The position numbers and the translations under genes are program-made. Shown one piece after another: positions 3,460-36,082 of a stretch of 49,086 nucleotides of DNA. Every line of letters begins with the position of its first letter. Position 1 is the first letter of the stretch. The DNA is from Algicola sp. (GTDB taxonomy: Bacteria; Bacteroidota; Bacteroidia; Flavobacteriales; Flavobacteriaceae). The notes beneath the pieces are model-generated. The model was not told where the DNA came from and ran no database searches. It worked only from the letters and a program-made list of their open reading frames with translations. The stretch lies in NCBI GenBank assembly GCA_018222835.1, contig JAAEZN010000015.1:1-49086 (forward strand). Reading direction: 5' to 3'.

Positions 3460-4548
3460 TTAATTGGTTACGGGAAGGAATACTTCACCACTGCAGGAGT
3501 CTGCCGTGGCACCGGTAACAGATTTCAATACGTTTGTTTTTCCTTCTGATCGCAGAACACCCATCAAGGCAAAAACCAAAGCTTCTTTGTAGGCGATCAA
3601 TGTTTTGTTTGGTACAACGACTTGGATTTCGCTGCCCAACTTTTCCTGAAGCGTTTCAATGAAAAAAGAGTTAAGCGCGCCCCCGCCCGTAGCCAGTAAT
3701 TTGATATCTGTTTTGCTACTGTTTTTGTGCTGATGCACTGCATTTGCGATTTGTTCGCAATTATGGTGGATAAAGGTGTGCAATAGGTCTTTGTTGGAAG
3801 TTCCCGAGTTTTCGATTAAAGGGAGAATCTTCTCGGAAAACCATTCAAAACCTGTGGATTTAGGGTTGGGGAGTCGGTAATACTCCAAGGAGTTCAATTT
3901 TTGGAGCAAGGTCTGGTCCAGTTTTCCTGAGCGTGCCAATTTTCCATCTTCATCATAGGCCTTGCCCATTTTATGGGTAACATAGTTTAGTGGCATATTG
4001 GCCAGACCAATATCATAAGCTATGCGTTCCCCGTTCTTGTCAAAAGAAATATTGCTGATGCCTCCCAAATTCAGACAAAAATCATATTCATGGAACAAAA
4101 GTTTGTCGCCAATTGGTACCAACGGCGCGCCTTGTCCTTTTAAGGACACATCTTTAGTTCTAAAATCACAGACTACTTTTTTCCCGGAAGTATTGGCCAA
4201 GAGTTGACCATCTCCCAATTGAAAGGTGATCCCTTCATCTGGTCGGTGGTGGGAGGTATGCCCATGGCTGGCAATAAAATCTACCCCTCCGTTAAGGTTT
4301 TGCATAAAAGCCTTGGTCTGTTGACCTAGGAAAACACCATACTCTTTGTGCAATTGTTCGTGGTCTTCTTCGGAAAGATGGATTGCATTTTTGAGATATT
4401 CCCGCATTTCGTCGGAATAATCGATCTCTGCGGTCTCTTTAATGGAAAAGTTCCATTTTCCTTCTTCCTCCCAAATATGGCAATAGGCAATGTCCAGACC
4501 ATCTAGTGAAGTTCCGGACATTAATCCCAAGACTTTATATATGCTCAT
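3460..4548 (-). CDS. anmK: Anhydro-N-acetylmuramic acid kinase
   Basis: A 362-residue cytoplasmic kinase that opens the 1,6-anhydro ring and phosphorylates anhydroMurNAc to MurNAc-6-phosphate with ATP. The N-terminus GLMSGTSLDGLDIAYC (residues 8-23) is the family signature for the phosphate loop. Further on, SHGHTSHHRP, LNLGGISN and ATGGGALN fit the ASKHA kinase fold of AnmK. Length matches the family (about 365-380). It is the last gene of a tightly packed minus-strand operon and overlaps the preceding methyltransferase by four bases (ATGA). Its product is the substrate of MurQ, encoded at 17342, and its neighbours encode a NagZ-like glycosidase and an AmpG-like permease, so the peptidoglycan recycling role is well supported. 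Confidence 0.95.
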   Translation of the reverse strand: MSIYKVLGLMSGTSLDGLDIAYCHIWEEEGKWNFSIKETAEIDYSDEMREYLKNAIHLSEEDHEQLHKEYGVFLGQQTKAFMQNLNGGVDFIASHGHTSHHRPDEGITFQLGDGQLLANTSGKKVVCDFRTKDVSLKGQGAPLVPIGDKLLFHEYDFCLNLGGISNISFDKNGERIAYDIGLANMPLNYVTHKMGKAYDEDGKLARSGKLDQTLLQKLNSLEYYRLPNPKSTGFEWFSEKILPLIENSGTSNKDLLHTFIHHNCEQIANAVHQHKNSSKTDIKLLATGGGALNSFFIETLQEKLGSEIQVVVPNKTLIAYKEALVFALMGVLRSEGKTNVLKSVTGATADSCSGEVFLPVTN

Positions 4549-5210
4549 ACCTTATTTATTTTAATGATCAAAGAAATCGGTTTCTGGTCATTGTTCAGGA
4601 CTTCCTTAATACTGAATTTACTATTTTCAACTTGATTCAATATGTTAACCCAATCTTCCATGGTCCGTGCATACCAAGAATGCCCGTCCGTAAAGTTGCC
4701 CGGCAGACCTTTCCAGGAATCGGAAAGCCATTGACATGTATAGGGTAGGTTGTTTTCTATCAAAAAATAGGGATGTAGGGTTTGAATCACAATCGAACCG
4801 CCTGTTTTTAACTGTTTTAAAGTGTTTGTCAATAACTCTTGGAGCCCTTCCTTCAGGTAAAGACAAAAGTTGAAGACTGCAACATCGAAAGGGGCATTTG
4901 GAATTGTTTTTCCATCAATAATATCCTCAAAAGTGAACACTTCAAAAGATTGTTTGCCTTGTTTTTTTGCCTCTTCTATCAAACCTTCTGTGGCATCCAC
5001 ACCAGTAGTTTTCCATCCCAGACCATGTATTTCACGGGCCAACCAACCCTCTCCACAGCCTATATCCACTAAGGAGTTACCGTCTAAAACCTTTAATGTG
5101 TCCAAGATGGCCGCATTCGTATATTTTCTGGAGGGAATGGCATTATTTTGAATAACCTTCACCCATTCTTTCGCATTTTTGTTCCAAGATGCCTTGATTT
5201 TATCACTCAT
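4545..5210 (-). CDS. Class I SAM-dependent methyltransferase
   Basis: A 221-residue protein with motif I as VDIGCGEGWLAREI (about residues 48-61), followed by the acidic end of strand 2 (TTGVDATEGLI) and FDVAVFNFCLYL as a post-motif strand. It resembles small-molecule methyltransferases (Methyltransf_11/25 type). The substrate is not known. It sits between the GH3 glycosidase gene and anmK, overlapping both by four bases, so it is translationally coupled to the recycling genes. A link to cell-wall sugars is only inferred from position; it may equally be a passenger. ATG at 5210. Confidence 0.85.
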   Translation of the reverse strand: MSDKIKASWNKNAKEWVKVIQNNAIPSRKYTNAAILDTLKVLDGNSLVDIGCGEGWLAREIHGLGWKTTGVDATEGLIEEAKKQGKQSFEVFTFEDIIDGKTIPNAPFDVAVFNFCLYLKEGLQELLTNTLKQLKTGGSIVIQTLHPYFLIENNLPYTCQWLSDSWKGLPGNFTDGHSWYARTMEDWVNILNQVENSKFSIKEVLNNDQKPISLIIKINKV

Positions 5211-6790
5211 ACCCGAAAAGTTTTTAATTGAATGGGAAGCTTGCCCTTGGCTTTGGTTTTGCCAAGAAAATGTTCAAAGGCAGCTTCTTGGAATTCAGGA
5301 AAATCCTGATAGATCAATGTTACATTGGAATTTGGTGCCAACTTTAAAATATCGAGAACATAGGGGTTGCCAAAAAGATAGATCAAAGTGTTCTTTTCTT
5401 TGATTAATTTTTGAATGGCCGATAGTGTTTTTTCATCAAACCCAAAATGGTCTTTAGGTTTTACTGCGGGTGGAAAAATGCTTAGTAGTATATTTTTGTG
5501 ACCGGACTGTAATGCGGTATCCAAATCCATGGCTTGTATTCCCGAATGAGTCGCTACTTGTTCCGCGAATTGATTCTTTTTTCCAGAATTTACAGAAACA
5601 TTCAAGAAGTTAGAAGACCTGATTTCTTCTGCCGAGAGCGGATTACCGTAAAGCTCCGTAATGGTATTTTGGGCAATTTCTTTGTTCAGCTTAGCATTGT
5701 TACTGTTCGACACCTTGGTAGAAGCATTTGGGGCGAAAACTTTTTGTTTTAGTGCCCAAACTCTTTCAAAGCTTTGTTGTATCTGTTTTTCGGAAGCGTC
5801 GTTTATGATTTTTGCAATGCCTTCCGCTACATTTTCGGTAAAGCAGAGTACATCCATGCCCGCTGAGAATGCGGCCGCTTCCAACGCCCCTTTTTCAGCG
5901 AACTTTTTGGATACTGCATGCATGTTCAGTGCATCGGAAATTACAACACCATTAAAGCCCAACTCTTTTCGGAGCAACTCGGAAATTATTTTTGATGATG
6001 TGGTCGAGGGATGGTCGGCATCTATCTGCGGCAAGAGCAAATGCCCGACCATAACAGAGTCAACACCTTTCTCGATCAGTTTTTTAAAGGGATATAATTC
6101 GCTTTCCAAGAGTTCTTCCAAAGATTTATCGATAATGGGCAATCCCAAATGGGAGTCGGTAGCCGTATCGCCATGCCCTGGAAAATGTTTAATGGAGTTA
6201 AGGGTTCCACTCTTGGCCATTCCTTTTAGGAATGCTTCTGCCTTGGAGAGTACACTGTTCCTATCATCCCCAAAAGACCGATATCCAATAACTGGATTTT
6301 CTGGATTGTTATTGATATCGACCACTGGGGCCAAGTTCCATTGTACACCTGCTTGTTTACAATCATTGCCAATGGCTTCGCCCACTTTGTAAACTAGTTC
6401 GTTATTGTTATTTAGGGCACCTAATGTAATAGCATACGGAAATTGAGGCGTGTTCTCGATGCGCATGGCAAGTCCCCATTCAGCGTCAATAGCTATGATC
6501 AAAGGAATTTGAGCAGCTTTTTGATATCGGTCTATAAGTTCCAATAACCGATGATAACTTTTTTCGTTGTGCACCACTTTCTTCTTGCCTTCGAAGTTGG
6601 TTGCGGCACTGGCCCTACTGTGAAAAAAACAAATGGACCCTATATGGTGATCCTTGATCATTTTTTCCATTTTTAGAACCTCTTCTTCGGTATCGTTGAT
6701 AAATACGGCGGGCATAAATAATTGTCCTACCTTCTGTTGTAAAGAAAGTGGTTCAGAGGTAAGTGTGTATGTTCGATGGGTATCAATCAT
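5207..6790 (-). CDS. GH3 family beta-N-acetylhexosaminidase (NagZ-like)
   Basis: A 527-residue glycoside hydrolase family 3 protein. The catalytic (beta/alpha)8 domain occupies about residues 12-340. It has the NagZ-type signature KHFPGHGDTATDSH (residues 201-214), whose Asp/His pair acts as the acid/base in NagZ enzymes, and the nucleophile region VISDALNM with Asp286. NagZ removes GlcNAc from GlcNAc-anhydroMurNAc peptides. E. coli NagZ is about 340 residues; the extra C-terminal region here (about 350-527) resembles the second domain of two-domain GH3 enzymes. I see no signal peptide, which fits cytoplasmic action after import. It overlaps ampG-like by eight bases and the methyltransferase gene by four. 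Substrate is inferred from motifs and from anmK and ampG neighbours. Confidence 0.9.
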   Translation of the reverse strand: MIDTHRTYTLTSEPLSLQQKVGQLFMPAVFINDTEEEVLKMEKMIKDHHIGSICFFHSRASAATNFEGKKKVVHNEKSYHRLLELIDRYQKAAQIPLIIAIDAEWGLAMRIENTPQFPYAITLGALNNNNELVYKVGEAIGNDCKQAGVQWNLAPVVDINNNPENPVIGYRSFGDDRNSVLSKAEAFLKGMAKSGTLNSIKHFPGHGDTATDSHLGLPIIDKSLEELLESELYPFKKLIEKGVDSVMVGHLLLPQIDADHPSTTSSKIISELLRKELGFNGVVISDALNMHAVSKKFAEKGALEAAAFSAGMDVLCFTENVAEGIAKIINDASEKQIQQSFERVWALKQKVFAPNASTKVSNSNNAKLNKEIAQNTITELYGNPLSAEEIRSSNFLNVSVNSGKKNQFAEQVATHSGIQAMDLDTALQSGHKNILLSIFPPAVKPKDHFGFDEKTLSAIQKLIKEKNTLIYLFGNPYVLDILKLAPNSNVTLIYQDFPEFQEAAFEHFLGKTKAKGKLPIQLKTFRV

Positions 6791-8063
6791 TTGAATCGGT
6801 TGTTTTTTTGCCGTAATCGGCAGGGTATTTTAAATAACGAAGCACAATAAATGCTGGCAAGGCGGCAATTACCACCCATATAAAGAAGCCATCATAACCC
6901 AACCATTCTTGTATGTAGCCGCTTAGCATACCTGGCAACATCATTCCGAGAGCCATAAAACCAGTTGCGATGGCATAATGAGATGTTTTTGAAGCTCCTT
7001 CGGCTATATAGATCAAGTACATCATAAAAGCGGCAAAGCCGAAGCCATAGCCAAATTGTTCTATGACCACGGTACCTACTACGGCATAAATGCTTGTGGT
7101 TTGTGTTACTGCCAACAATGCATACAGTGCGTTGGGCAGGTTTAATGCAAGCAACATGGGAAGCATCCACTTTTTTAGGCCGTCCCGAGATATTAAAATA
7201 CCGCCCAAGATGCCACCAAGTGATAACATAATTACACCAACAGTACCATAAATGGTACCAACGGCTTCGGTAGAGTAGGCCAATCCACCTACTTCCAATC
7301 CGTCCAGCAAAAAGGGCGATGCCATTTTAACCAATTGGGATTCTCCCAAGCGATAGGTTAGGATAAACAGCAATGCAACGCCGATTTGGTGCTTTCTGAA
7401 AAAGGTGGCGAATACTTCAAAAAATCCAACAGGCTTTTCTTTGGACTTTGAGGCGGGCTCCTCGAATTTGGGTGTTGTAAAAAAATTGGAAATGGTCAAT
7501 GCGATCATTAAAACTGCGGCACAGATCATAGTTATTGACCATGCTTTGGTATTGTCACCATATTGGTTCTCCAAAAAACCAGCAAAAATCACCAAAAGCC
7601 CCTGCCCGGTAACCATTGCCAATCGGTAAAAGGTGCTGCGAAGGCCTATAAAAAAAGACTGTTTTTTCTGGGTGAGGCCAATCATATAATACCCATCGGA
7701 GGCAATATCGTTGGTGGCCGATGCGAAAGCTGCCATCCAAAAGAACGCTAAGGTGATTATAAAAAATGAGTTCGAAGGTAGAAAAAGACCTATGCCCAAA
7801 AAGGCTAGGGAAATAATCAACTGCATGGCCAAGAACCACTTTCGCTTGGTGCCGTTAATGTCCACCAAGGGGCTCCATAATGGTTTAATTACCCATGGTA
7901 GATATAACCAGCTGGTATATAGGCCGATTTCCGCATTTCCAATGCCCAATCGTTTGTACATAATTACCGAAACTGTTACCACTAGAATGTATGGAATTCC
8001 CTGAGTGAAATATAAAAAGGGAATCCACAACCAAGCGTTTTTATCTTTTGGAGCTACATTCAT
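6783..8063 (-). CDS. AmpG-like muropeptide MFS transporter
   Basis: A 426-residue membrane protein with about 12 predicted helices and little else. The N-terminal LWIPFLYFTQGIPYILV and the first cytoplasmic loop region KRLGIGNAEIGLYTSW match the AmpG/acetyl-CoA transporter branch of the MFS (AmpG proteins carry a similar segment about their first two helices). AmpG imports GlcNAc-anhydroMurNAc-peptides across the inner membrane. Overlap of the neighbouring coding ends (four bases with the acetyltransferase, eight with the GH3 gene) and the presence of anmK in the same operon support a role in uptake of cell-wall fragments. The precise cargo (muropeptide, disaccharide or free sugar) is inferred. 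Confidence 0.87.
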   Translation of the reverse strand: MNVAPKDKNAWLWIPFLYFTQGIPYILVVTVSVIMYKRLGIGNAEIGLYTSWLYLPWVIKPLWSPLVDINGTKRKWFLAMQLIISLAFLGIGLFLPSNSFFIITLAFFWMAAFASATNDIASDGYYMIGLTQKKQSFFIGLRSTFYRLAMVTGQGLLVIFAGFLENQYGDNTKAWSITMICAAVLMIALTISNFFTTPKFEEPASKSKEKPVGFFEVFATFFRKHQIGVALLFILTYRLGESQLVKMASPFLLDGLEVGGLAYSTEAVGTIYGTVGVIMLSLGGILGGILISRDGLKKWMLPMLLALNLPNALYALLAVTQTTSIYAVVGTVVIEQFGYGFGFAAFMMYLIYIAEGASKTSHYAIATGFMALGMMLPGMLSGYIQEWLGYDGFFIWVVIAALPAFIVLRYLKYPADYGKKTTDSND

Positions 8064-8542
8064 TTGGGTTGTTTTAATAGGTTTTGATAAATACTTTTTT
8101 CGGACTTTTCTATGATTTTGGCACCTACGGTCTGTTCATAATAACTAGCAGGGCCAACCCCTCCAATAATGGCATAGGTGTATCCTATTTCTTTGAGAGC
8201 CAACAAGGCCTTGATCAATAAAATTTTACCAATGCCTTTGCCTCTTTCAGTTTCAAGAACCCCGGTCGGACCAAAAAAATTCTTAGCAGTGCTTTCAAAG
8301 CAGGAAAAACCTAAAATATCCTGTCCACGTTGCGCAATAAAACAGTTTACGGGCAGGGAAGTGAAGGCGGCTTCTGTTTCGTCCGCCCAATTTTTGCTGA
8401 AATGCTTCTTCGTCCAATCCACGACAATACTTTTTTCCGGAGTAATGGGCCTTTTAAAGATTACACCGTGATTTTCGAAGAGGTTTTTTTCCGCTTCAGA
8501 AATGTCGGGAAGGTCCAAAAGTCGAACAAGCATATCCTGCAT
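8060..8542 (-). CDS. GNAT family N-acetyltransferase
   Basis: A 160-residue acetyltransferase. The acetyl-CoA binding motif A is seen as ERGKGIGKILLIKALLAL (about residues 98-115), with a preceding strand GPTGVLET and a following YTYAIIGGVGPASYYEQ segment. The acceptor is unknown. It is the second gene of the operon, six bases after the GHL10 gene and overlapping ampG-like by four bases. In this setting an amino-sugar acceptor is a reasonable guess, since GNAT enzymes that acetylate glucosamine or muramic derivatives exist, but nothing in the sequence proves it. There is a second in-frame ATG at codon 4. Confidence 0.82.
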   Translation of the reverse strand: MQDMLVRLLDLPDISEAEKNLFENHGVIFKRPITPEKSIVVDWTKKHFSKNWADETEAAFTSLPVNCFIAQRGQDILGFSCFESTAKNFFGPTGVLETERGKGIGKILLIKALLALKEIGYTYAIIGGVGPASYYEQTVGAKIIEKSEKSIYQNLLKQPK

Positions 8543-8548
8543 AGGTGT

Positions 8549-10033
8549 CTATTTTAAGTTAAGAGGCTGCATAGCACTTTGGTTGCCATATGCATCACTT
8601 ATATTGATGTGTAAATCTTTCCGCAATTGTTTCTTTGTCAGGTTAAATTGATAGCACCCTTCTGCATCACTTTCCGAAAGGTATTCTTTTCCAATGAGTT
8701 GGGACTTTCCTTGTTTGATCACATATAGGTTTAAAAAACGAGGGATATCATCCGTATGCGCAACACAAAGGTCTAAGGTTGTATCGTTTGCCTCGACTGA
8801 ATTGATTGCGGGCAACTGTACCGCTCGTACTAAACGATTTAGCGGGCCTGGATTTTTTGAGGGCAAACGGTAAAACTTCTTTTGGAGTTTCTTGTTGATT
8901 TTTTCGTGCTGTCCTATCAAGGATTTTGCGCTGAAAAAGATATTACCGTCAATATTATCCAAATCCCTGGCAAGATTTAACTGCTTGGGGATTTCGTTGG
9001 TCTTTTTCCAAGCCTTGTCTGCATTATTCTTGATTTTATACGTGCCGTTCCCCACATAAAGATTAGTGTTGGGGGTATTTTTGGCCCACCAAGATGTGAT
9101 GATCTTATGGGATGCCACTGGATAGTCCATGCTCCAATATACTTGGGGCGCCAGATAATCCAACCAACCTTCTTGAACCCACAGCACGGGGTCGGCATAA
9201 AGGTCTTCATATGTGGTTTGTCCGGCTTTGGTGTCGGAGCCCAACGGGTCTGTACTCTTATTTTTCCAAACACCAAATGGGCTGATGCCGAACTGTACCC
9301 ATGGTTTGTACTTTTTTATGGTTGTATGGACATTTTTTACGAGAGAGTCCACATTGCTTCGCCTCCAGTCTTCTATAGATTGACCGGGCAGTCCATATTT
9401 TGAATAGGTTTTGGCGTCATCAAAAATTTCGCCCTCCTCTTTATAGGGGTAGAAGTAATCATCAAAATGAATGGCATCTATTTCGTATTTGGTAACCAGT
9501 TCTTCGATGATAAGATTGAATTTTTTCCTTGATTCCGGCAGTCCGGGGTCGTAATAATATTTTTTGCCGTATTTGATAATCCAGTCAGGGTGTTGATAAA
9601 AATCGTGTGATTGCGACAATGTCAGGGTATCAAGGCTAACGGTAGCTCTATATGGGTTGAGCCAAGCATGAAATTCCATGCCTCGTTTGTGGGTCTCATC
9701 GATCATCCATTTAAGTGGCTCGTTGAACCCTTTTGGTGCTTCACCTTCCTTGCCGGTCAAATATCTGGACCATGGAGCCAAATCGGTTGGGTATAGTGCG
9801 TCGCCTGCGGCCCTTACTTGAACAATGGCCGCATTGAAGTTCATTTTTTGATAGAAATCAAGGATTTGGATGTAATCTTCTTTTTTCTTGATTACTCCGT
9901 CGTTGGGGCTTTTTGGCCAATCTATGTTGGCCACTGTAGCAATCCAAACACCTCTAAACTCTTCTTTTGGCGCTTTGGTGGTAGCACAGGAAAGAAAAAC
10001 AAAGACAGGGATTATGTATAAAAATCGAAACAT
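8549..10033 (-). CDS. GHL10 family (YngK-type) glycoside hydrolase lipoprotein
   Basis: A 494-residue lipoprotein. The signal peptide ends in the lipobox FLSC with Cys16, so the protein should be anchored in the outer membrane or periplasm. The mature part begins with FRGVWIATVANIDWP, the hallmark of the GHL10 (former DUF187) family, and continues with FDAHLNPYR-like MEFHAWLNPYRA and IDAIHFDDYFYPY, the conserved acidic segment of this TIM barrel. Residues from about 400 form a beta-rich tail. The family is thought to hydrolyse glycans, with poorly known substrates. As first gene of an operon for muropeptide uptake and AnmK, it may act on peptidoglycan glycan chains or other amino-sugar polymers; this is inference. 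Confidence 0.85.
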   Translation of the reverse strand: MFRFLYIIPVFVFLSCATTKAPKEEFRGVWIATVANIDWPKSPNDGVIKKKEDYIQILDFYQKMNFNAAIVQVRAAGDALYPTDLAPWSRYLTGKEGEAPKGFNEPLKWMIDETHKRGMEFHAWLNPYRATVSLDTLTLSQSHDFYQHPDWIIKYGKKYYYDPGLPESRKKFNLIIEELVTKYEIDAIHFDDYFYPYKEEGEIFDDAKTYSKYGLPGQSIEDWRRSNVDSLVKNVHTTIKKYKPWVQFGISPFGVWKNKSTDPLGSDTKAGQTTYEDLYADPVLWVQEGWLDYLAPQVYWSMDYPVASHKIITSWWAKNTPNTNLYVGNGTYKIKNNADKAWKKTNEIPKQLNLARDLDNIDGNIFFSAKSLIGQHEKINKKLQKKFYRLPSKNPGPLNRLVRAVQLPAINSVEANDTTLDLCVAHTDDIPRFLNLYVIKQGKSQLIGKEYLSESDAEGCYQFNLTKKQLRKDLHINISDAYGNQSAMQPLNLK

Positions 10034-10043
10034 ATAAGCGAAA

Positions 10044-10080
10044 AAAAAGGCCTACGTATGCACTAAATGTAGGCCTTTTT
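10044..10080 (-). terminator. Rho-independent terminator after susC-susD
   Basis: A perfect 12-bp stem (AAAAAGGCCTAC at 10044-10055 and its complement at 10069-10080) with a 13-base loop. Read on the minus strand it is followed by a run of T residues (plus-strand A run from 10041). It lies downstream of susD and before the GHL10 gene, so it separates the nagB-susC-susD transcript from the six-gene operon, or attenuates read-through into it. Confidence 0.85.
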
Positions 10081-10124
10081 GCAAGATTAAATTAAACAAC
10101 TAACAACTTAAAAACAAAATTGTA

Positions 10125-11459
10125 TCAGATGGCTGGGTCATCTGGTGTATTGGTGTTATTATCTCTTTCCGTGTTAGGGTAAGGATAAAAGTTTCTATTA
10201 CGCTCCTCGTCAAAATTCTGAACGGTAGGGGTTGGGTCTGGTCTTCCGAATCTTCTACTATCCTCCAAACTCATTCCTGTTAAGAACAGTTCAGCTCTTC
10301 TGTTTTTGTAAACTTCATCCAACAGAACGTTAACCGAAGTATCCCCAGCATAAGCTGAAACATTTGCATTCACTCCAAAAATGTCATCGGTATCCGTCAA
10401 GACCAAGTTCAATGCTGCAACCGCAGCACCGTTATCGGGAGATGATTTTCTAAGATTGGCTTCGGCAATAATAAGGTTCATCTCGTCCGGAAGGTAAATT
10501 GGAATAGCTCCAGTATCTTCATTAAAGAAACCTGCCAAATCTTCAATCGGGAATTGGTTTTGATTTAGTTCATCCAAAGGAACCATGTAAAAATCAAATC
10601 TTCCGTCACCATCTTCAAATACAAAACTAGCTGGTAAACCAAAATTGTCCTGAGGCTTAAAGTTTGGAGCATTGTTTTGGTAGACCCTGCTCCATATTGG
10701 GTTAAGATTTCGCGTGTCGTAGGTGAAAATAGAACCAGAGGTTTGATCCACATCCGATGCTGCAGAAATGGCGGCATCGTAGTTGCCTGCGAACAGATTA
10801 AACCTTGCCAACATTGCATTTATGGTATTTTCCAAGTCGATGTCACCTCTCAATACCTCAGCTTCGAACTCTGCGGAGATCGGATTTGCAGCGATAGTGC
10901 TTTTAGCCTCGTTCAACAAGGCGATCGCTGTATTGTAACCTTCAATCCTTGATATAAAAGGGGGATTGTCCCTGGAAGTGGCAACGATAACTTGCTCATA
11001 ATTCTGTGCCATAGCTCCAATGCTCATAGCGTGAAAAAGTTTTGCATTGGCGATCAAACCACTTTTGGTTCCTGCATCAACATCAAGTTCAGCTGCATTT
11101 ACTGCAATATCCTCGGCAATACCTATAACTCTTAACATTGTAGTCCACAGTCCCACAACATTGGAGTTGGTGTTAGGGATATCCCCGCCATCTTCCAAAT
11201 CGATCATATTTTGGAAAGTAGTGGTGATTCCACCTTCTCTTGTAGTGATTGCAGGGGTCTCGATAATATATCGCATACCGCTCGTAGAATACAGTTCCTG
11301 CATTCCGATGGAAGTAGCCAAGATTCCTTCTCTGGAAGTAAATACCTGATCACTTGCTGCGGCGTTCGGGTTTTCAAAGTTTGTTTCGCACGATGTAATT
11401 GCCAATACGGTGGTTAGCAGGAACATCAGCTTATATGTAGAATATCTATAAAATTTCAT
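10125..11459 (-). CDS. SusD/RagB family nutrient-binding outer-membrane lipoprotein
   Basis: A 444-residue lipoprotein of the SusD/RagB family, which forms the lid over a SusC TonB-dependent channel and captures glycans or peptides. I start it at the ATG at 11459; the frame is open two codons further to a TTG. The signal peptide ends in the lipobox ITSC with Cys24, followed by ETNFENPN, typical of SusD proteins. The C-terminus carries YKNRRAELFLTGMSLEDSRRFG and FYPYPNTERDNN, the characteristic closing motifs of the family. It is 17 bases after susC and followed by a strong terminator. Neighbouring amino-sugar genes suggest peptidoglycan or chitin-like saccharides as ligand; the ligand is not shown by sequence. 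Confidence 0.92.
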   Translation of the reverse strand: MKFYRYSTYKLMFLLTTVLAITSCETNFENPNAAASDQVFTSREGILATSIGMQELYSTSGMRYIIETPAITTREGGITTTFQNMIDLEDGGDIPNTNSNVVGLWTTMLRVIGIAEDIAVNAAELDVDAGTKSGLIANAKLFHAMSIGAMAQNYEQVIVATSRDNPPFISRIEGYNTAIALLNEAKSTIAANPISAEFEAEVLRGDIDLENTINAMLARFNLFAGNYDAAISAASDVDQTSGSIFTYDTRNLNPIWSRVYQNNAPNFKPQDNFGLPASFVFEDGDGRFDFYMVPLDELNQNQFPIEDLAGFFNEDTGAIPIYLPDEMNLIIAEANLRKSSPDNGAAVAALNLVLTDTDDIFGVNANVSAYAGDTSVNVLLDEVYKNRRAELFLTGMSLEDSRRFGRPDPTPTVQNFDEERNRNFYPYPNTERDNNTNTPDDPAI

Positions 11460-11476
11460 TGTCAATTTTTTTAAGA

Positions 11477-14449
11477 TTAGAAGCTTACGTTTACACCTAA
11501 CTGATAGGTTCTCGGTATTGGCACCGTAGCAAAATCAAATCCTCGAACACCGTTACTCTGACCGGCAGCACTTACTTCTGGGTCCCATCCCGAATAGTCG
11601 TCCCAAGAGATCAGGTTACGTCCTACCAAGCTGAACTTAACATTGTCTATGTGTTCCCATTTTGGTTTTAGGGTATAGCTCAATGCCACTTCTCTTAGTT
11701 TTACAAAGGAGCCGTCTTCCACAAATTCTTCGAATATATTGGCTTGTGCACTTCCATATCCTTTAGGAAGTTCACCTGATAATTCTGCACCAACTTGTGA
11801 GCCTCCTCCAAAGATTACGTTATCCATCAACCTTCTGTTCCAGTTGAAAACATCGTAGCCTTGGATAGCGTCGAATTGAACTCTAAGTCCAAAATCCTTA
11901 TATGAGAATTCGTTGATCAAGGAACCGAACCAATCTGGATTCGGGTCTCCAATTACCTTGGATGCTTCACCGTCTTCTGTAGTTCCCCTGAAAGGATATC
12001 CATTATCGTCCAAAGCAATTGAACCATCTTCGTTTCTTGCATAAAACTGGCGATAGAATACACCTAATGGCTGACCTTCGATTACATAGTTGGTCGAGAA
12101 ACTGCCACCTATGGCAATTCTTCCACCACCTGCAACGTTGGTTACTTCGTTCTTGTTTTTAGAGAAAGTAGCGGTAACATCCCAGTTAAAGTCTTGGGAT
12201 TTGACCGGGGTTGCTCTCAATAATACCTCAACACCTGTGTTTTCAAGGTTCCCTACGTTTTCATAACGAGAACTAAAACCACTTGATGGGCCAAGTACCC
12301 TTTCAAGAAGTAAGTCTGTTACTTTTTGTTTGTAATAGGTAAACTCGATACCTAAACGGTTGTTCATAAATCCGGAATCGAAACCTAACTCAAACTCATC
12401 TTGTCTTTCAGGCTTTAGGTCAAGATTTCCTAGACGGGTATTGGGTGTAAGACTAACTGCTCCTGTTAATGCAGATGGGTCGTAATTGGTGAATCTTGAA
12501 TAGGCACCAAGCGCGGTAAGGTTACCTGCCTGACCCCAAGAGGCCCTTATTTTAAAGATGTTGAAAGCGTCACCAAAGGTGTTTTTCCAAAAATCCTCAT
12601 CGGACATTACATAGGAACCACTTGCTTTGAAGTAAAGTTGGTTACGTTCATCTTCTCCAAAAGAAGAGGCGCCATCCAAACGTACAGCTCCATTTATATA
12701 GAGTTTGTCCTTGTAGGAGAATGATTGTTGATAGAAAGCGCCCCAGTAAGAAATCTGCGAACGGCTTTCTCCTTGCTCCAAAATACTTCCACCTGTTGCA
12801 GTTTGAACCAATGGGGGTAGGCCTGTTGCATTTATGCCAACACGCTCACGTTCTTCATACTGCCAGGATCCTCCTACTGTCGAAGTTGACCTAATATCAT
12901 CAGTAAGCTCGGTTCTGTAGGTTACATTAAGGTCTGAGTTGTATTGAAAATTGTTCAAGTCAGCTCTTCTAGCATAGCCATCAGCATTTGGAGATGTATT
13001 GTTTATCGGAATATAAGCTGTAGCCGATTGGTTGTAATAGTCTATACCAAATGTGTATTTGGCACTCAAATTATCGTTGAATTTTGCATCTAAAGCTAGA
13101 CTGGTTATAAAACGATTGGTTTTCTGACCGAAATCGAAACGAGCTACTGCTTCAGCAGGGTTTGTTCTAGGAACCAAAGGAGATGTTACGGGATAAACTC
13201 CGGATTCATCTGGTGAAGGATCTATAGAGTTGTCACTAAATACATAACCTGTAATTGCCCCGTACGGGTTGTTGATTCCACCATTGGGTACATCTTTACT
13301 TACACTGCGTACATAATTGAATCCACCGGTAATGTTTAGCCAGTCAAATGCTTTTTGTGTAATGTTGGCTTTGAACCCGTATCTTTTAAAATTGGTGTTT
13401 TTGATGATACCCTCGTTATCCAAGTGGGAAGCTGATAAAAAGTAAGATGTTTTTTCAGTACCACCATTCATGGAAAGATAGTTTTCGATACCAAAGCCAG
13501 TGTCGAACAACTCATCCTGAAGATTATATCGGTCCACTTCGTAAGTTGCCAAGTTGGATCGGTCTGTAGGAACTTCCCAAGCCAATGGAACTGTGTTGTA
13601 ATCAATTTCTTTTCTAAGTTCGTTGATACGGGCATTGGTCATAAAAGTGAACTTGGGCTCACCGCTTCTACCTTGCTTGGTGAAAATCTGTACAACACCG
13701 TTACTTGCTCGCGAACCGTAGATTGCCGCAGCTGCAGCACCTTTGATCACCTCGATTTTTTCAATGTCGTTAGGGTTAATGTCCGCCAATCTATTTTGGG
13801 CGTTACCTCCCAAGTCCACCAGCTCGTTACTTGAGTTGCTGATAATAATTCCATCAATAATGTACAATGGATCGGAACTACCGGCGATGGTACTTGGTCC
13901 CCTTAAACGGATACTGATACCACCTGCAGGGTCTCCAGAGTTTTGTTGTACCAAGGCTCCTGTAATTTTTCCGGAAATGGCTTGGTCAATCTGTGTGGCA
14001 CCATTTTCCACCAATTGCTCGGCTTTAACCGATGAAATGGCATTACCTAAAGTCCTTTTGTTTACTCCGGTACCACTACCTGTTACAACCACTTCGTCCA
14101 AGCTCAAAAGGTCTTCGGCCAAGGCAATGTCGTTGGTAATGGTGGTAGTTCCACCGGCATCAATGGAAATTCTTTGTGATGTAAAACCTAGTGAGCTGAA
14201 AACTAGTGTGTAAGAACCCGATTCAAGGGTTGCTGTAAATGTGTAGTTTCCATCAAAATCGGTAACAGTACCGAATGATGAGTTTTCAATAAAAACCGAT
14301 GCACCTGCCAATGGAAGGTTGGTTCCGGTTTCTGTAACGGTTCCAGAAAAGGTGAATTGACTCTGGCCAAACGCGGAAAGCGTAGAAACCATGAGTGCGA
14401 AAAGCACCAATCGGAACCTCAATCCTAAATAGTCATGAAGTTTTCGCAT
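11477..14449 (-). CDS. SusC/RagA family TonB-linked outer-membrane receptor
   Basis: A 990-residue outer-membrane transporter. It has a signal peptide (about residues 1-28), a carboxypeptidase-regulatory-like domain (FSGTVTETGTNLPLAG onward, about 33-110), the SusC linker DEVVVTGSGTGVNKR, and a plug domain with LRGPSTIAGSSDPLYIIDG and the conserved IEKIEVIKGAAAAAIYGSR. The rest is the beta barrel ending in an aromatic residue (VSF). Length is normal for the family. Energy comes from TonB. It is 48 bases downstream of nagB, with no recognisable TAnnTTTG promoter in that gap, so co-transcription with nagB from the TGCA-controlled promoter is likely. That context points to import of GlcNAc- or MurNAc-containing saccharides. 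Confidence 0.95.
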   Translation of the reverse strand: MRKLHDYLGLRFRLVLFALMVSTLSAFGQSQFTFSGTVTETGTNLPLAGASVFIENSSFGTVTDFDGNYTFTATLESGSYTLVFSSLGFTSQRISIDAGGTTTITNDIALAEDLLSLDEVVVTGSGTGVNKRTLGNAISSVKAEQLVENGATQIDQAISGKITGALVQQNSGDPAGGISIRLRGPSTIAGSSDPLYIIDGIIISNSSNELVDLGGNAQNRLADINPNDIEKIEVIKGAAAAAIYGSRASNGVVQIFTKQGRSGEPKFTFMTNARINELRKEIDYNTVPLAWEVPTDRSNLATYEVDRYNLQDELFDTGFGIENYLSMNGGTEKTSYFLSASHLDNEGIIKNTNFKRYGFKANITQKAFDWLNITGGFNYVRSVSKDVPNGGINNPYGAITGYVFSDNSIDPSPDESGVYPVTSPLVPRTNPAEAVARFDFGQKTNRFITSLALDAKFNDNLSAKYTFGIDYYNQSATAYIPINNTSPNADGYARRADLNNFQYNSDLNVTYRTELTDDIRSTSTVGGSWQYEERERVGINATGLPPLVQTATGGSILEQGESRSQISYWGAFYQQSFSYKDKLYINGAVRLDGASSFGEDERNQLYFKASGSYVMSDEDFWKNTFGDAFNIFKIRASWGQAGNLTALGAYSRFTNYDPSALTGAVSLTPNTRLGNLDLKPERQDEFELGFDSGFMNNRLGIEFTYYKQKVTDLLLERVLGPSSGFSSRYENVGNLENTGVEVLLRATPVKSQDFNWDVTATFSKNKNEVTNVAGGGRIAIGGSFSTNYVIEGQPLGVFYRQFYARNEDGSIALDDNGYPFRGTTEDGEASKVIGDPNPDWFGSLINEFSYKDFGLRVQFDAIQGYDVFNWNRRLMDNVIFGGGSQVGAELSGELPKGYGSAQANIFEEFVEDGSFVKLREVALSYTLKPKWEHIDNVKFSLVGRNLISWDDYSGWDPEVSAAGQSNGVRGFDFATVPIPRTYQLGVNVSF

Positions 14450-14497
14450 AAAATTGAGTAGTTAATTGAGATTATTTTAAATGAGTTGTTGGTTTAC

Positions 14498-16408
14498 TTA
14501 TAGAAAATGGTATCGTACAAAACCTTCCATGGCTTCATATTCTGCCATGCCGAGTTCGTTATATCTATTTGCCGTATCCTTATTTCGTTGCTCCGCACGC
14601 TGCCAAAACTCGCGTTCGTCGTTACCTGGGAACATGGCACTGTCCTTTTGGGATTGGTGCTTAAATATGGCATTGATCTTACGGGCCATATCCTTGGGGC
14701 CGATCGGTACTGCCATTTCCATATCGGCAATATCCCATTCTTGCCAAGCGCCTCGGTAAAGCCATACGTAGCAGTTTCGAATCCAATCCACTCTGTCCTC
14801 TTTTAGTTTTTCCAATGCTTTGAAAATAATTTGAAGACACACTCTGTGTGTTCCGTGTGGGTCGGACAAATCTCCAGCGGCAAAAATCTGGTGAGGCTTC
14901 AATTCGTTGAGCAAGTCATATGTAATTTGTACATCTTCATCAGAAAGAGGCTTTTTGCGAACTGCTCCAGTTTCGTAGAATGGAAGGTTTTGGAAATGTG
15001 CGTTCTCTTCCGGTACACCACAGTATCTACAAGCAGCTAATGCTTCTCCTTTTCTGATCAGGCCTTTAAACTCCTGTACTTCTGGGCTATCCAGTTCCCC
15101 GGGCTTTTTATTGTCCAAGAACTCTCTAACTTCCTTTATTTTTTGTTTAAGTTCTTTATTGTCTTTTTGTACGTCGGTAGCAAAATCCAAGAAACGTATT
15201 ACTTCATCATCAAAAACTGCTATGTTTCCAGAGGTCTGGTATGCTACGTGTACATTATGTCCTTGATCTACCAATCGCAACAAGGTGCCTCCCATGGAAA
15301 TTACATCATCATCTGGGTGGGGACTAAAAATTAAAGAGGTTTTTGGGTGGGGCTGTGCTCTTTCTGGTCGTTGGCTATCATCTGCATTGGGTTTGCCACC
15401 GGGCCAACCTGTAATAGTGTGTTGTAGTTGGTTAAAAACCTTAAGGTTTATTTGTTCAGCTGAACCAATTTCTGCAATAAGGTTGCCCATTCCGTATTCG
15501 TTGTAATCTTCGTTGGTCAACTTTAGGATGGCCTTGCCCAGTTTTTCTGAAAGCCAAATGGTTGCTGTTTTGATCAATTTGTCGTCCCAATCACATTCTG
15601 TAGCCAACCAAGGCGTCTTTTTCCTGGTTAGTGATGAAGCGGCTGCCTCGTCCAGAACAAAATCACAATTGTCGTGATGCTGAAGGAAGGTGGCGGGTAC
15701 CGATTCTTTGATTTTTCCTTCAACAGCTTGTTGGACAATGCTGGACTTACCCTCGCCCCATGCCATTAGAATTATTTTACGGGCACTCATAATAGTACCA
15801 ACTCCCATGGTTATGGCACGTTTAGGTACATTCTCTTCTCCAAAGAAGTCACTTGCGGCATCAAGTCTTGTCATTGCATCCAATCGGATCAGACGTGTTT
15901 TGCTGTTCAAAGTAGAACCTGGTTCGTTGAAACCGATATGCCCAGTTCGCCCAATACCCAGTATTTGGATGTCGATTCCGCCTACATTTTTAATTTTTTC
16001 TTCGTAATCCTCGCAATACTTCCTTATCTCGTTCATGGATAGGTTCCCATCCGGAATATGGATGTTGTGTGGCTCAATATCTATATGATCGAACAAATGT
16101 TCGTTCATAAACCGTACATAGCTATGAATGGAATCGGGCTTCATTGGAAAATACTCGTCCAAGTTAAAAGTGATTACATTTTTAAAACTTAGTCGTCCCT
16201 CTTTGTGAAACTGCACTAAGTAATCGTACACCTTTACAGGAGTAGATCCAGTGGCCAAGCCCAAAACGGCTTTTTTGCCCTGTTCCTGTTTTTGGTTGAT
16301 TAAACTGGCAATTTCGTTAGCAACGGACAACGAAGCTTCATCGGAATTTCCATGGATAATAGTGTGGATTTTCTCAAATCTTAAATCTTCTTGATAAGGC
16401 TGGTACAT
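14498..16408 (-). CDS. nagB: Glucosamine-6-phosphate deaminase fused to a PIG-L deacetylase domain
   Basis: A 636-residue two-domain enzyme. Residues 1-330 are a NagB-type deaminase/isomerase (GlcN-6-P to fructose-6-P and ammonia): LGLATGSTP binds phosphate, NLDEY holds Asp84, and GIGRTGHIGFNEPGS holds His157 and Glu162. E. coli NagB is about 266 residues and has Asp141 where Thr155 stands here. Residues 355-636 form a PIG-L/LmbE zinc deacetylase domain with SPHPDDD (362-368) and DPHGTHR (516-522). The fused domain could deacetylate GlcNAc-6-P or a related amino sugar before deamination; this coupling is inference. Similar fusions are common in Bacteroidota (from memory). It heads the minus-strand unit and is divergent from the DeoR-type regulator. 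Confidence 0.9.
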   Translation of the reverse strand: MYQPYQEDLRFEKIHTIIHGNSDEASLSVANEIASLINQKQEQGKKAVLGLATGSTPVKVYDYLVQFHKEGRLSFKNVITFNLDEYFPMKPDSIHSYVRFMNEHLFDHIDIEPHNIHIPDGNLSMNEIRKYCEDYEEKIKNVGGIDIQILGIGRTGHIGFNEPGSTLNSKTRLIRLDAMTRLDAASDFFGEENVPKRAITMGVGTIMSARKIILMAWGEGKSSIVQQAVEGKIKESVPATFLQHHDNCDFVLDEAAASSLTRKKTPWLATECDWDDKLIKTATIWLSEKLGKAILKLTNEDYNEYGMGNLIAEIGSAEQINLKVFNQLQHTITGWPGGKPNADDSQRPERAQPHPKTSLIFSPHPDDDVISMGGTLLRLVDQGHNVHVAYQTSGNIAVFDDEVIRFLDFATDVQKDNKELKQKIKEVREFLDNKKPGELDSPEVQEFKGLIRKGEALAACRYCGVPEENAHFQNLPFYETGAVRKKPLSDEDVQITYDLLNELKPHQIFAAGDLSDPHGTHRVCLQIIFKALEKLKEDRVDWIRNCYVWLYRGAWQEWDIADMEMAVPIGPKDMARKINAIFKHQSQKDSAMFPGNDEREFWQRAEQRNKDTANRYNELGMAEYEAMEGFVRYHFL

Positions 16409-16452
16409 AATAAAATGTATAAAATTCTAGCAAAACGCTGAAAAGTTAAATC

Positions 16453-16484
16453 CAAATGTATGCAAAAAACTGCATTAAATGCAA
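16453..16484 (-). promoter_or_regulatory. nagB promoter (-7 TACATTTG, -33 TTG)
   Basis: On the minus strand TACATTTG (16460-16453) is an exact match to the Bacteroidota -7 consensus TAnnTTTG. A TTG lies 21 bases upstream (16484-16482), within the usual spacing. The -33 element falls inside the TGCA repeat array, so a bound regulator would block it. The start codon is 44 bases downstream of the -7 box. Confidence 0.7.
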
Positions 16485-16534
16485 TTAAATGCAAATAATG
16501 CAGAATAAAACTTGAAAACTGCATTTATTTGCAG
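16460..16534. promoter_or_regulatory. Phased TGCA operator array between nagB and the DeoR-type gene
   Basis: TGCA occurs at about 16460, 16471, 16480, 16490, 16499, 16520 and 16530, mostly 9-11 bases apart, that is, about one helical turn. Within it TGCATTAAATGCA (16471-16483) is a perfect inverted repeat around a central base, TGCAAATAATGCA (16490-16502) is near-perfect, and CTGCATTTATTTGCAG (16519-16534) is another dyad. The array overlaps the -33 elements of both divergent promoters. The likely ligand is the DeoR-type repressor at 16588, with a sugar phosphate as inducer; this is inference. Confidence 0.65.
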
Positions 16535-16560
16535 TATTTTGCGGTTATTAGTTACATTTT
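16528..16560 (+). promoter_or_regulatory. Probable promoter of the DeoR-type gene and murQ
   Basis: TTTG at 16528-16531 and TACATTTT at 16553-16560 are separated by 21 bases and match the Bacteroidota promoter except for the last G of the -7 box. The -33 element lies inside the right-hand dyad of the TGCA array. The ATG follows 27 bases later. Confidence 0.45.
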
Positions 16561-16587
16561 TAGGATTTATTTAACTTTATCCCACGT

Positions 16588-17337
16588 ATGTTAAAAGAAG
16601 AAAGACATCAGTTTATACTTAACGAGGTTGGAATCCATAATAGGATCTTACTGACGGATATAGCTGATCGGTTAAATGTATCTGTGGATACCATTCGTAG
16701 GGATATCAAAGAGTTACATAGTGCCAAGCAATTAAAAAAAGTGCATGGTGGAGCTGTTTCTCTTGGGTTTAATAATTATAATCCTACAGGAAAAAAAATT
16801 TATTCCTTAGAAAAAAAATCGCAAATTGCAGAAAAGGCGCTTGGACTAATTAAAGATGAACAAGTAATTTTATTGAGCGGAGGCACTACCAATTTGGAAT
16901 TGGCCAGAAAACTTCCTCCAAAAATAAAGCTTACCTGTTTTACTCCAAGTCTGCCCATCGCTGTGCAGCTTTTGAACAAGGACAATATTGAGGTGATTTT
17001 TATTGGAGGCCGATTGTCCAAAGACTCACAAATTACCATTGGTGGTAGCGCGATCAACATGCTGTCGGAAATAAAAGTGGATATCTGCTTTTTGGGAACC
17101 AACTCGATTCATCCGATGGAGGGGTTGACAGAATTTGATTGGGAGATAGTCCAAATGAAAAAGGCTATGATCCATAGTTCAAGAAAAGTGGTGTCTCCAT
17201 GTATATCCGAAAAACTTGGGTCCACCCAACGTTATAAAATATGTGGGGTAGAGGAGGTCGATGTAATGATTACGGAGTTGGAGCCTTGGGACATGAAGCT
17301 GGATGCATTTAAAAACCTGAACATACAAATATTATAA
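16588..17337 (+). CDS. DeoR/GlpR family transcriptional regulator
   Basis: A 249-residue regulator. The N-terminal winged helix has the DeoR signature LLTDIADRLNVSVDTIRRDI (about residues 19-38), followed by KKVHGGAVSL, the usual link between the domains. The C-terminal DeoRC domain (about 75-235) includes LLSGGTTNLELARKLP, a sugar-phosphate binding loop of the NagB-like fold, and FIGGRLSKDSQITIGG. Such proteins usually repress sugar genes and are released by a phosphorylated sugar. It is divergent from nagB and four bases ahead of murQ, with a phased TGCA array between, so it probably controls both transcripts in response to an amino-sugar phosphate such as GlcNAc-6-P, GlcN-6-P or MurNAc-6-P. 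Confidence 0.93.
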   Translation: MLKEERHQFILNEVGIHNRILLTDIADRLNVSVDTIRRDIKELHSAKQLKKVHGGAVSLGFNNYNPTGKKIYSLEKKSQIAEKALGLIKDEQVILLSGGTTNLELARKLPPKIKLTCFTPSLPIAVQLLNKDNIEVIFIGGRLSKDSQITIGGSAINMLSEIKVDICFLGTNSIHPMEGLTEFDWEIVQMKKAMIHSSRKVVSPCISEKLGSTQRYKICGVEEVDVMITELEPWDMKLDAFKNLNIQIL

Positions 17338-17341
17338 TATA

Positions 17342-18157
17342 GTGGTAGAAAAGCATATTAAGATTACGGAGGAGCCATCCAACTATGATGGTTTGGATGA
17401 AATGAATACATTGGAGATAGTGGCCAATATCAATAATGAAGATAAAAAAATAGCAGATGCCGTGGAATTGGTGCTGCCACAAGTGGCCAAAATCGTGGAC
17501 GAGACTGCCAAGCGCTTTGAAAAAGGTGGTAGGCTTTTCTACATTGGTGCAGGTACTAGTGGTAGGTTGGGCATACTTGATGCTTCCGAAATACCCCCAA
17601 CCTTTGGTATGCCTTACGACAATGTAATCGGTCTTATTGCCGGTGGTGACCAAGCTATACGAAAAGCTGTGGAATTTGCAGAGGATGATACCGAACAGGC
17701 CTGGAAAGATCTTAAGGAATACAATATAAACGAGAATGATGTGCTGGTAGGTATAGCTGCTTCGGGTACAACACCTTATGTTTTGGGCGGTATTGCCGAT
17801 GCCAGAGCAAATGGCATCCTAACGGCCGGAATTACGAATAACCCAGGTTCGCCTTTGGCGACGTCTGTGGATATACCTATTGAGGTGAACGTTGGCCCTG
17901 AATTTTTGACCGGAAGCACCCGAATGAAGAGTGGAACCAGCCAAAAATTGGTACTGAACATGATTTCTACTGCTTTAATGATACGTATTGGCAGGGTCAA
18001 GGGCAACAAAATGGTAAATATGCAATTGAGCAATACCAAATTGGTGGATAGGGGCACGCGTTACATAATGGAAGAACTTGGTCTTAATTATGATGAAGCT
18101 GAAAAAGTACTCAAAAAATACGGCTCGGTAAAGCTGGCCATTGATGCATTAAAGTAA
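17342..18157 (+). CDS. murQ: N-acetylmuramic acid 6-phosphate etherase
   Basis: A 271-residue SIS-domain lyase that splits the lactyl ether of MurNAc-6-phosphate into GlcNAc-6-phosphate and D-lactate. LFYIGAGTSGRLGILDASEI (residues 66-85) binds the phosphate and contains Glu83; Glu114 follows in KAVEFAEDD. Both positions coincide in number with the glutamates reported as catalytic in E. coli MurQ. GSTRMKSGTSQK near residue 190 is the second signature. The family is usually near 300 residues, so this is slightly short, lacking part of the C-terminal helical region. GTG start, four bases after the regulator stop. It links AnmK (3460) with NagB-PIG-L (14498), closing the recycling route to fructose-6-P. 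Confidence 0.96.
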   Translation: MVEKHIKITEEPSNYDGLDEMNTLEIVANINNEDKKIADAVELVLPQVAKIVDETAKRFEKGGRLFYIGAGTSGRLGILDASEIPPTFGMPYDNVIGLIAGGDQAIRKAVEFAEDDTEQAWKDLKEYNINENDVLVGIAASGTTPYVLGGIADARANGILTAGITNNPGSPLATSVDIPIEVNVGPEFLTGSTRMKSGTSQKLVLNMISTALMIRIGRVKGNKMVNMQLSNTKLVDRGTRYIMEELGLNYDEAEKVLKKYGSVKLAIDALK

Positions 18158-30017: not shown

Positions 30018-30214
30018 TAAATAACTTCAATTAGATTTGAATTTATGGTTTGCTAAGTGTAAAATAGTATAAACGAATCTAAATGGCGAATTATTTAAAG
30101 TGAGTTTTTCAAATCAATAAGTTCTTAGCAAATTTTTAGAAAGGTATTGAGCGATAGGCTTAACTTAAGAATTTGGGTATGGTTAATATGCTAAAATCAA
30201 CCTATACCACATTC

Positions 30215-30292
30215 TAGCACACATAGCTAAACAGCAAACTGTGTATTTCAACGAATAAATTAGCACATGTTGAGAATAGCACAAATGTTTGA
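30215..30292. repeat. TAGCACA repeats upstream of the serine recombinase gene
   Basis: TAGCACA occurs at 30215-30221, 30261-30267 and 30277-30283. The last two are extended direct repeats of the form TAGCACA(n)TG(n)TTGA, 16 bases apart. They sit directly before the recombinase ATG at 30296. They may be recombinase binding sites or replication iterons. Confidence 0.4.
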
Positions 30293-30295
30293 ATC

Positions 30296-30889: not shown

Positions 30890-30920
30890 GGGAAACCTAA
30901 TTCGGTAATTGATGAAATAA

Positions 30921-30952
30921 TCTTTCTATGGTTTAGTTAATTATTAGAAAGA
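30921..30952 (+). promoter_or_regulatory. Hairpin in front of the primase-helicase start
   Basis: TCTTTCTA (30921-30928) and TAGAAAGA (30945-30952) form a perfect 8-bp stem with a 16-base loop. The right arm runs into GAAGG, the likely ribosome-binding sequence ten bases before the ATG at 30962. In the RNA it could hide the start region and limit Rep synthesis. Confidence 0.4.
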
Positions 30953-30961
30953 AGGTTAAAA

Positions 30962-34983: not shown

Positions 34984-34999
34984 GGTTTAAAATTGAATT

Positions 35000-35980: not shown

Positions 35981-36082
35981 TGTGTGAAAATATTGAATAG
36001 ATGTTTACAAGGCAACTGCACCAGATGACATTTTCTACTGGTTGTTGAGACTTATTTGGTTGCTAGTACTATTTGAGGATAA

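Follow-up and report, generated by a model that had tools for sequence, protein, structure and literature searches.

In Escherichia coli, anhydro-muropeptides are recycled by AmpG, NagZ, AnmK, MurQ, NagA and NagB; permeases of the AmpG type carry the anhydro form, and AnmK phosphorylates it. Here, we analyzed a locus at positions 3,460 to 18,157 of a 49,086-nucleotide stretch of DNA from Algicola sp. (Flavobacteriaceae; assembly GCA_018222835.1, contig JAAEZN010000015.1; the whole stretch is referred to as the window). The locus has the same order of steps as E. coli, but its genes are clustered in one operon with a SusC/SusD (SusCD) outer-membrane pair and a GHL10 protein, its NagB is fused to PIG-L, and NagA was not found. 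We consider it fairly probable that the locus represents a salvage operon for peptidoglycan sugars, with a conserved core and an exchangeable SusCD scavenging add-on.

The nine-gene ampG/murTKQ cluster of Tannerella forsythia (Tanf_08345-08385) is likewise a single transcription unit in Bacteroidota that joins AmpG to the salvage of N-acetylmuramic acid (MurNAc) (PMC7670621; PMC5790795). It relies, however, on MurT and MurK for free MurNAc and on GppX two-component regulation, and no SusCD pair is named in it in the available text of these reports, whereas our locus has the AnmK route, GHL10, a DeoR regulator and SusCD. Polysaccharide utilization loci (PULs) of the SusCD type share with our locus tandem susC/susD genes, glycan-cutting enzymes, an inner-membrane permease and a local regulator, but most of the pathway encoded here is cytoplasmic recycling. 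In a survey of PULs, the peptidoglycan enzyme families GH23, GH24, GH25 and GH73 were reported to be strongly depleted, although they occur in several predicted loci (PMC6499787, available portion). In the accessible parts of the open-access literature searched, we found no description of a SusCD pair within a peptidoglycan recycling operon, and the outer-membrane entry of peptidoglycan pieces is scarcely treated there. The parts of the locus are known; their arrangement, a salvage operon with an optional, exchangeable SusCD and a linked methyltransferase, is new.

The recycling core

The genome measures 3.5 Mb and carries the locus on contig C22; the nearest named relatives are Muricauda, Allomuricauda and Flagellimonas species. 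It is a nine-gene run on the minus strand, with genes for DeoR and MurQ divergent on the plus strand. All genes named in a first-pass annotation of the window were present at the coordinates given there, AnmK, MurQ, NagB-PIG-L and SusC scoring above their NCBIfam cut-offs:

3460..4548, minus strand: AnmK (NCBIfam NF007144, 505.7 bits, cut-off 436)
4545..5210, minus strand: class I S-adenosylmethionine (SAM)-dependent methyltransferase (Pfam Methyltransf_23; best PDB match 3e8s, 105 bits)
5207..6790, minus strand: NagZ-like GH3 beta-N-acetylglucosaminidase (Pfam GH3, 264.6 bits)
6783..8063, minus strand: AmpG-like muropeptide permease of the major facilitator superfamily (TIGR00901, 187 bits, below the cut-off of 350)
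8060..8542, minus strand: GNAT acetyltransferase (Pfam Acetyltransf_1, 22.5 bits, cut-off 20.7)
8549..10033, minus strand: GHL10 lipoprotein, probable lytic transglycosylase (Pfam GHL10, 248.4 bits; Cwp19, 5oq2, 345 bits)
10125..11465 (likely start ATG at 11459), minus strand: SusD-like surface lipoprotein (predicted fold)
11477..14449, minus strand: SusC TonB-dependent outer-membrane transporter (TIGR04056, 627.5 bits, cut-off 368)
14498..16408, minus strand: NagB-PIG-L fusion of a glucosamine-6-phosphate deaminase-like part and a de-N-acetylase, first gene of the operon (NF002557, 1070.9 bits, cut-off 384)
16461..16533, no strand: operator array of seven TGCA boxes, between the divergent genes
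16588..17337, plus strand: DeoR-family regulator (Pfam DeoRC, 141 bits; HTH_DeoR, 49 bits)
17342..18157, plus strand: MurQ, N-acetylmuramic acid 6-phosphate etherase, GTG start (TIGR00274 equivalog, 317.9 bits, cut-off 302)

The order on the minus strand is NagB-PIG-L, SusC, SusD, GHL10, GNAT, AmpG-like, NagZ-like GH3, methyltransferase, AnmK. From AnmK to GHL10, four of the five junctions overlap (by 4, 4, 8 and 4 nt) and the fifth is a 6-nt gap, in line with the overlaps first reported. The next three genes, SusD, SusC and NagB-PIG-L, lie on that strand as well, after gaps of 91, 11 and 48 nt, so the operon probably comprises nine genes and not the six that had been assigned to it.

The GHL10 protein aligned with the solved catalytic domain of Cwp19 (5oq2) over 364 residues (E 7e-102). 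Cwp19 is a lytic transglycosylase in which GHL10 is the responsible domain; its products end in 1,6-anhydroMurNAc, with some reducing-end products besides, and it carries three CWB2 repeats (PMC6016235, available portion). The Algicola protein, by contrast, showed one weak Melibiase match in Pfam besides GHL10, and an N-terminal lipoprotein signal by eye. It is probably a lytic transglycosylase by homology and, as GHL10 in Cwp19 yields anhydro-muropeptides, its predicted products would fit AmpG, NagZ and AnmK. The permease, the sole TIGR00901 match of the genome, scored 187.1 bits against the curated cut-off of 350; we call it AmpG-like because its best PDB matches were the solved AmpG structures 9c3f and 8zgz. 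Similarly, the GH3 protein is termed NagZ-like since it did not reach the cut-off of the NagZ model NF003740 (173.1 bits against 207). NagZ-type enzymes were among its best PDB relatives, including B. subtilis YbbD/NagZ (3bmx, 195.7 bits, with the KHFPGHGDT..DSH stretch aligned), and no signal peptide was apparent by eye. AnmK, the sole match of its kind in the genome, and MurQ both passed their equivalog cut-offs. For the GNAT acetyltransferase, a sequence search of the PDB gave no good match.

Every step from anhydro-muropeptide to glucosamine-6-phosphate thus has a candidate gene at the locus, which supports the role in muropeptide recycling originally proposed for it. The predicted activities would run from glycan cutting to N-acetylglucosamine 6-phosphate (GlcNAc-6-P) with matching chemistry at each hand-over.

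NagA was searched for in this genome in two ways: the best of all 25 candidates scored 28.6 bits against a cut-off of 225.65, and a Flavobacteriaceae NagA query had no match among the 12 of 17 candidates that were scored. The NagB-PIG-L fusion has a second copy in the genome (contig C7, 4547-6445), and it was found in 78 of 149 family genomes (E 1e-60 or better; 77 above the cut-off). NagA-like genes were detected in 16 of the 149 (E 1e-40 or better; 7 above the cut-off) by a search that scored the 12 best candidates per genome and left Bacillus subtilis, which we take to have NagA, unmatched at 1e-40; a second query gave the same 16 genomes. All 16 also hold the fusion, while none of the 71 genomes without it has a detected NagA, and 62 of the 78 fusion genomes are without detected NagA. 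In the PIG-L half, HPDD (presumably the zinc site) is present in 37 of 38 open reading frames (ORFs), the exception being truncated, and DPHGTH in all 38. Because NagA was not found, we suggest that the PIG-L half probably deacetylates GlcNAc-6-P in its place. PIG-L may thus be the likely deacetylase in the many Flavobacteriaceae of this sample that have the fusion and no detected NagA; a literature search returned no account of PIG-L as a deacetylase in NagA's stead.

The SusCD pair and its cell-wall gene neighborhood

The best PDB match of SusC was the SusC homolog 8aa4 (300.7 bits). SusD scored 18.1 bits, below the Pfam cut-off of 23.1, and a sequence search of the PDB gave weak matches and none stronger; among its relatives, L177, L183 and L109 exceeded the Pfam cut-off and L059 had no match. 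An AlphaFold model of SusD (pLDDT 85.8) matched SusD structures, the best with a Z score of 28.7 over 352 residues. This fold match is silent on the ligand: SusDs that bind glycans and peptides score alike. The labels AmpG, NagZ and SusD are therefore weaker than the first-pass annotation implied (187/350, 173/207 and 18.1/23.1 bits), although the SusD fold is clear. As in a SusCD-type PUL, susC and susD stand in tandem, and GHL10 and GH3 would, by homology, provide glycan-cutting enzymes in the same operon.

In Bacteroidota, acidic residues after the lipid cysteine mark lipoproteins for surface export. Cys26 of SusD is invariant in 49 alignment rows, and an acidic residue directly follows the lipid cysteine in 10 of 10 relatives; for GHL10, the cysteine could be placed in six of eight relatives, and in these six no acidic residue occupies the next two positions (both by eye). 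Read by the export rule, this pattern would place SusD outside and GHL10 facing the periplasm.

We aligned SusD with six family relatives and used it to retrieve 80 named loci. This set, the best 80 of 447, is biased toward Allomuricauda, Flagellimonas and Arenibacter (36 of 80). AnmK, MurQ, NamZ, AmpG and NagB-PIG-L were counted as cell-wall markers on the fetched stretch (up to ~10 kb on each side). At least one marker lay near the SusD lineage in 56 of the 80 loci, compared with none of 40 control loci, which hold unrelated SusDs of the same genus (Fisher test, loci taken as independent despite relatedness). These controls were the first 40 SusD matches below the strong group, from one genus, with the same thresholds and similar flanks, about nine of them on shorter stretches.

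The comparison of gene order in relatives that had been proposed bore out the grouping: the full GHL10-AmpG-NagZ-AnmK block was kept in one order in 39 of the 80 loci, including one from Fulvivirga (Cytophagales); in a Microscillaceae locus, the fetched stretch contains the block as far as NagZ. The arrangement is therefore more than chance.

Other cell-wall genes accompany the SusD lineage elsewhere: NamZ exo-muramidase with a sodium symporter and MurQ (L182-L184, by tblastn), methyltransferase with AnmK, symporter and MurQ (L067, L185), MurQ with AnmK (L031, L094, L096), and NagB-PIG-L (L033, L090, L091). Pfam or NCBIfam matches confirmed the NamZ, symporter, MurQ and AnmK assignments in the examples L030, L031, L067 and L183. 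By predicted function, the set of NamZ, symporter and MurQ is a second coherent route; MurT, the known MurNAc transporter, is a sodium symporter (PMC5790795, available portion). A MurT/DUF5009 label on one neighbor protein was dropped and left uncounted, as MurT is a sodium symporter and the protein matched no Pfam family. An epimerase-like gene beside L033 fell below all cut-offs and was not counted as a marker either. The closest relative (G200) has both a window-type operon and a NamZ-symporter-MurQ SusCD locus, ~28 kb apart (L183, L186). NamZ of the Algicola genome itself sits near the end of contig C160, and no SusCD was seen by eye in the surrounding 10.5 kb, nearly all of it on one side. 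The family relatives L032 and L034 have a GH3-beta-lactamase protein (Pfam-checked in L032), two DeoR genes around SusCD-NamZ, then a second SusCD-like pair. Two further loci, binned as Chlorobiota (L060) and Thalassovita (L103), have SusDs 69% and 52% identical to ours and are perhaps mis-binned Bacteroidota contigs.

Presence, exchange and partner gene of SusCD

Across 60 genomes of the genus, AmpG has strong matches in 58 and the SusD lineage in 38 (for SusD, E 4.2e-107 or better); the lineage is absent from 22, and off the operon in at least four more. The AmpG locus was fetched for 24 genomes that lack this SusD beside AmpG: 20 have no strong match to it at all, and the other four (G165, G168, G173, G180) have it elsewhere. 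Nineteen complete loci proved to be operons without any SusCD, seven of these also without GHL10, and in three others (L233, L239, L244) an unrelated SusC (32-34%) occupies the same slot; the SusD of L233 belongs to another Pfam family, SusD-like_2. We therefore rejected the view of SusCD as a fixed part of the locus. At the same time, the pair is not missing from the locus in all relatives, an outcome that the first-pass annotation would have counted against its proposal.

To follow SusCD across operons we took the 67 loci, of 114 examined, that contain AmpG, NagZ and AnmK (47 were dropped); two loci on short contigs were left out (L251, with methyltransferase; L252, without). The split into 45 loci with and 22 without this SusCD is not a prevalence, most SusCD loci having been found by the SusD query. 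SusCD and the methyltransferase were both present in 44 loci and both absent in 21 (exceptions L088 and L230); put differently, the methyltransferase occurs in 44 of 45 loci with SusCD and 1 of 22 without. On a core tree of AmpG, NagZ and AnmK (quick search, no bootstrap; the long branches L088 and L104 are unsure), the presence of SusCD needs 11 changes, 8 of them forced by starred branches. Over 200 random pairings, the methyltransferase followed SusCD in six to all eight of the independent pairs (mean 7.7, opposite 0; median p 0.008, range 0.008-0.031). It thus follows the transporter through at least eight tree changes, and in loci with few other genes (Maribacter, Christiangramia and others) it stands directly behind SusCD. 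We speak of a core plus an add-on because SusCD and the methyltransferase come and go together.

The first-pass annotation had treated SusCD, GHL10, the acetyltransferase and the methyltransferase as one group of extras, of which the pairing of methyltransferase with SusCD survives. GHL10 belongs mostly to the core because it is retained in 15 of the 22 loci without this SusCD, and on these grounds we rejected it as part of the scavenging add-on. GNAT (25 of 45 loci with SusCD, 5 of 22 without) is too mixed to be assigned to either.

SusCD has also been exchanged in place. In L177-L181 the core is 60-87% identical in protein to the operon of the window, whereas SusCD is 37-42% identical. Set against L071, L074 and L115, this swap takes three changes on the core tree, all starred; the alternative count, one gain and two losses, is also three. 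Between L071 and L178, DNA homology runs ~0.8 kb into susC, stops, and returns near the end of susD, and the protein identity is 83-85% over SusC residues 1-120, falls to 25-33% in part of the barrel and reaches 87% at the end of SusD; between L115 and L177 the break is at about the susC start. The surface part, that is the SusC barrel and SusD body, was thus swapped as a block in place, with the flanking genes unchanged. The exchanged SusD lineage groups with the SusD of NamZ-type loci of the same genus. Food or phages may drive the swap.

Tree neighbors with and without this SusCD (L043 and L233; L046 and L231) provide natural pairs of close relatives; with a specific transporter pair named by the locus, they make the question of outer-membrane entry directly testable.

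Regulation and readings of the locus

The seven TGCA boxes between the divergent genes start at 16461, 16471, 16480, 16490, 16499, 16520 and 16530. In 81 regions between DeoR and NagB or SusC, TGCA occurs 302 times, whereas single-base shuffles predict 42; the commonest spacing is 10 bp. Outside 16200-16800, no 179-bp interval of the contig holds at least five TGCA, and a three-box pattern was found in the genome at the array (three overlapping) and once on contig C99, while the reversed control gave none. Loci without this SusD retain the array in their 20 NagB-side regions (1 to 7 boxes, mean 4.3), so its regulatory role would extend to the core. DeoR regulators usually respond to sugar phosphates, and a DeoR bound to the array would repress transcription in the two directions as long as no sugar phosphate of the pathway is present. 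Of the 20 NagB-side DeoR from loci without this SusD, 18 fall in one lineage, alongside 24 from loci that have it.

In the salvage reading, the core of GHL10 (in most loci), AmpG-like permease, NagZ-like GH3, AnmK, MurQ and NagB-PIG-L would release GlcNAc-anhydroMurNAc units from glycan, either in the periplasm or at the outer membrane. These units would be imported and then split, the anhydroMurNAc phosphorylated to MurNAc-6-phosphate and, after removal of lactate, converted to GlcNAc-6-P, which would be deacetylated, probably by the PIG-L half, and deaminated into central metabolism. The add-on would consist of the SusCD importer and its partner methyltransferase, often with a different DeoR lineage, and SusCD would import external fragments of glycan or muropeptides, derived from other bacteria or from the cell's own shed wall. 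The first-pass annotation had likewise proposed scavenging of external peptidoglycan or turnover fragments; the marker context (56 of 80 against 0 of 40) and the clean presence or absence of SusCD in a little-changed operon support this role, and the muro-glycan or muropeptide ligand is a prediction from that context. Gain and loss of importer and methyltransferase together suggests that related species can switch between recycling their own wall and feeding on that of others. A bolder version is tentative: SusCD and the methyltransferase might form a mobile cassette that turns a self-recycling operon into a cell-wall-feeding one, with surface parts swapped as a block, NagB-PIG-L standing for NagA plus NagB, and the methyltransferase acting on the import or product or removing a toxic by-product. 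If so, the methyltransferase would be a new enzyme of peptidoglycan salvage.

Several observations weigh against a scavenging operon of this kind. None of the five markers was found in 24 of the 80 loci, some of these on short contigs, and counted by genus-level group a marker is present in 18 of 31. Nevertheless, 23 of the 24 genomes with a marker-less SusCD locus hold AnmK elsewhere, NagZ adjoining it in 7 of the 24 AnmK loci fetched. The SusD lineage is rare in the family (strong single-protein match in 7 of 149 genomes, this one included), and DeoR falls into two main lineages that track SusCD loosely. L251 carries the methyltransferase in a genome that is 75% complete (G161) and has no strong SusD match. 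The AmpG and NagZ models scored below their curated cut-offs. In the NagB half, the position that we take to correspond to Asp141, presumably the catalytic residue of E. coli NagB, is Thr (GIGRTGHIGFNEP in 34 of 38 ORFs), and the NagB and GlcNAc-6-P steps serve the use of chitin or GlcNAc as well.

One alternative is that SusCD serves chitin or another GlcNAc glycan and that the cell-wall genes share just the GlcNAc-6-P end with it. NagB-PIG-L and DeoR would suit any GlcNAc source, and chitin-binding SusDs are among the fold matches, although not at the top (8j0p, Z 24.6; 5j5u, Z 25.4). Yet the operon contains no chitinase or GH20 gene, while AnmK, MurQ, NamZ and AmpG, which recur beside the SusD lineage, act on muramic-acid compounds, and we regard this explanation as improbable. 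Less far-fetched, but still rather unlikely, is that SusCD recaptures the cell's own shed turnover fragments only, the whole locus being self-recycling with a better outer-membrane step. DigH is a protein that we take to be of the GHL10 type. The core without SusCD in 19 fetched loci agrees with self-recapture, as does the action of GHL10 relatives on the cell's own wall (PMC6016235; PMC12288456, on DigH; available portions). By contrast, receptors with at least eight tree changes and in-place swaps resemble adaptation to outside food or attackers more than housekeeping.

Such swaps could also mean that the slot accepts any SusCD and that the pair, with no link to peptidoglycan, is there as a hitchhiker or as a receptor under pressure from phages or bacteriocins; the unrelated SusC and SusD-like_2 proteins found in that slot point the same way. 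It would then be hard to explain why the SusD lineage of other genomes adjoins various cell-wall genes in differing orders, and why the methyltransferase is absent where SusCD is absent. We hold this to be very improbable and retain the salvage operon with an exchangeable SusCD.

Near the locus, the window encodes a 2769-aa protein (19439-27748) in which nine stretches match SprB repeats and the C-terminus carries a type IX secretion domain. The stretch 28974-43812 holds HNH proteins, a 1043-aa helicase, one full integrase, one integrase-like protein, a DUF5712 protein and a HIT-HNH fusion weakly like the ThsC and PtuB defence proteins; its gene content suggests a mobile element that may carry defence genes.

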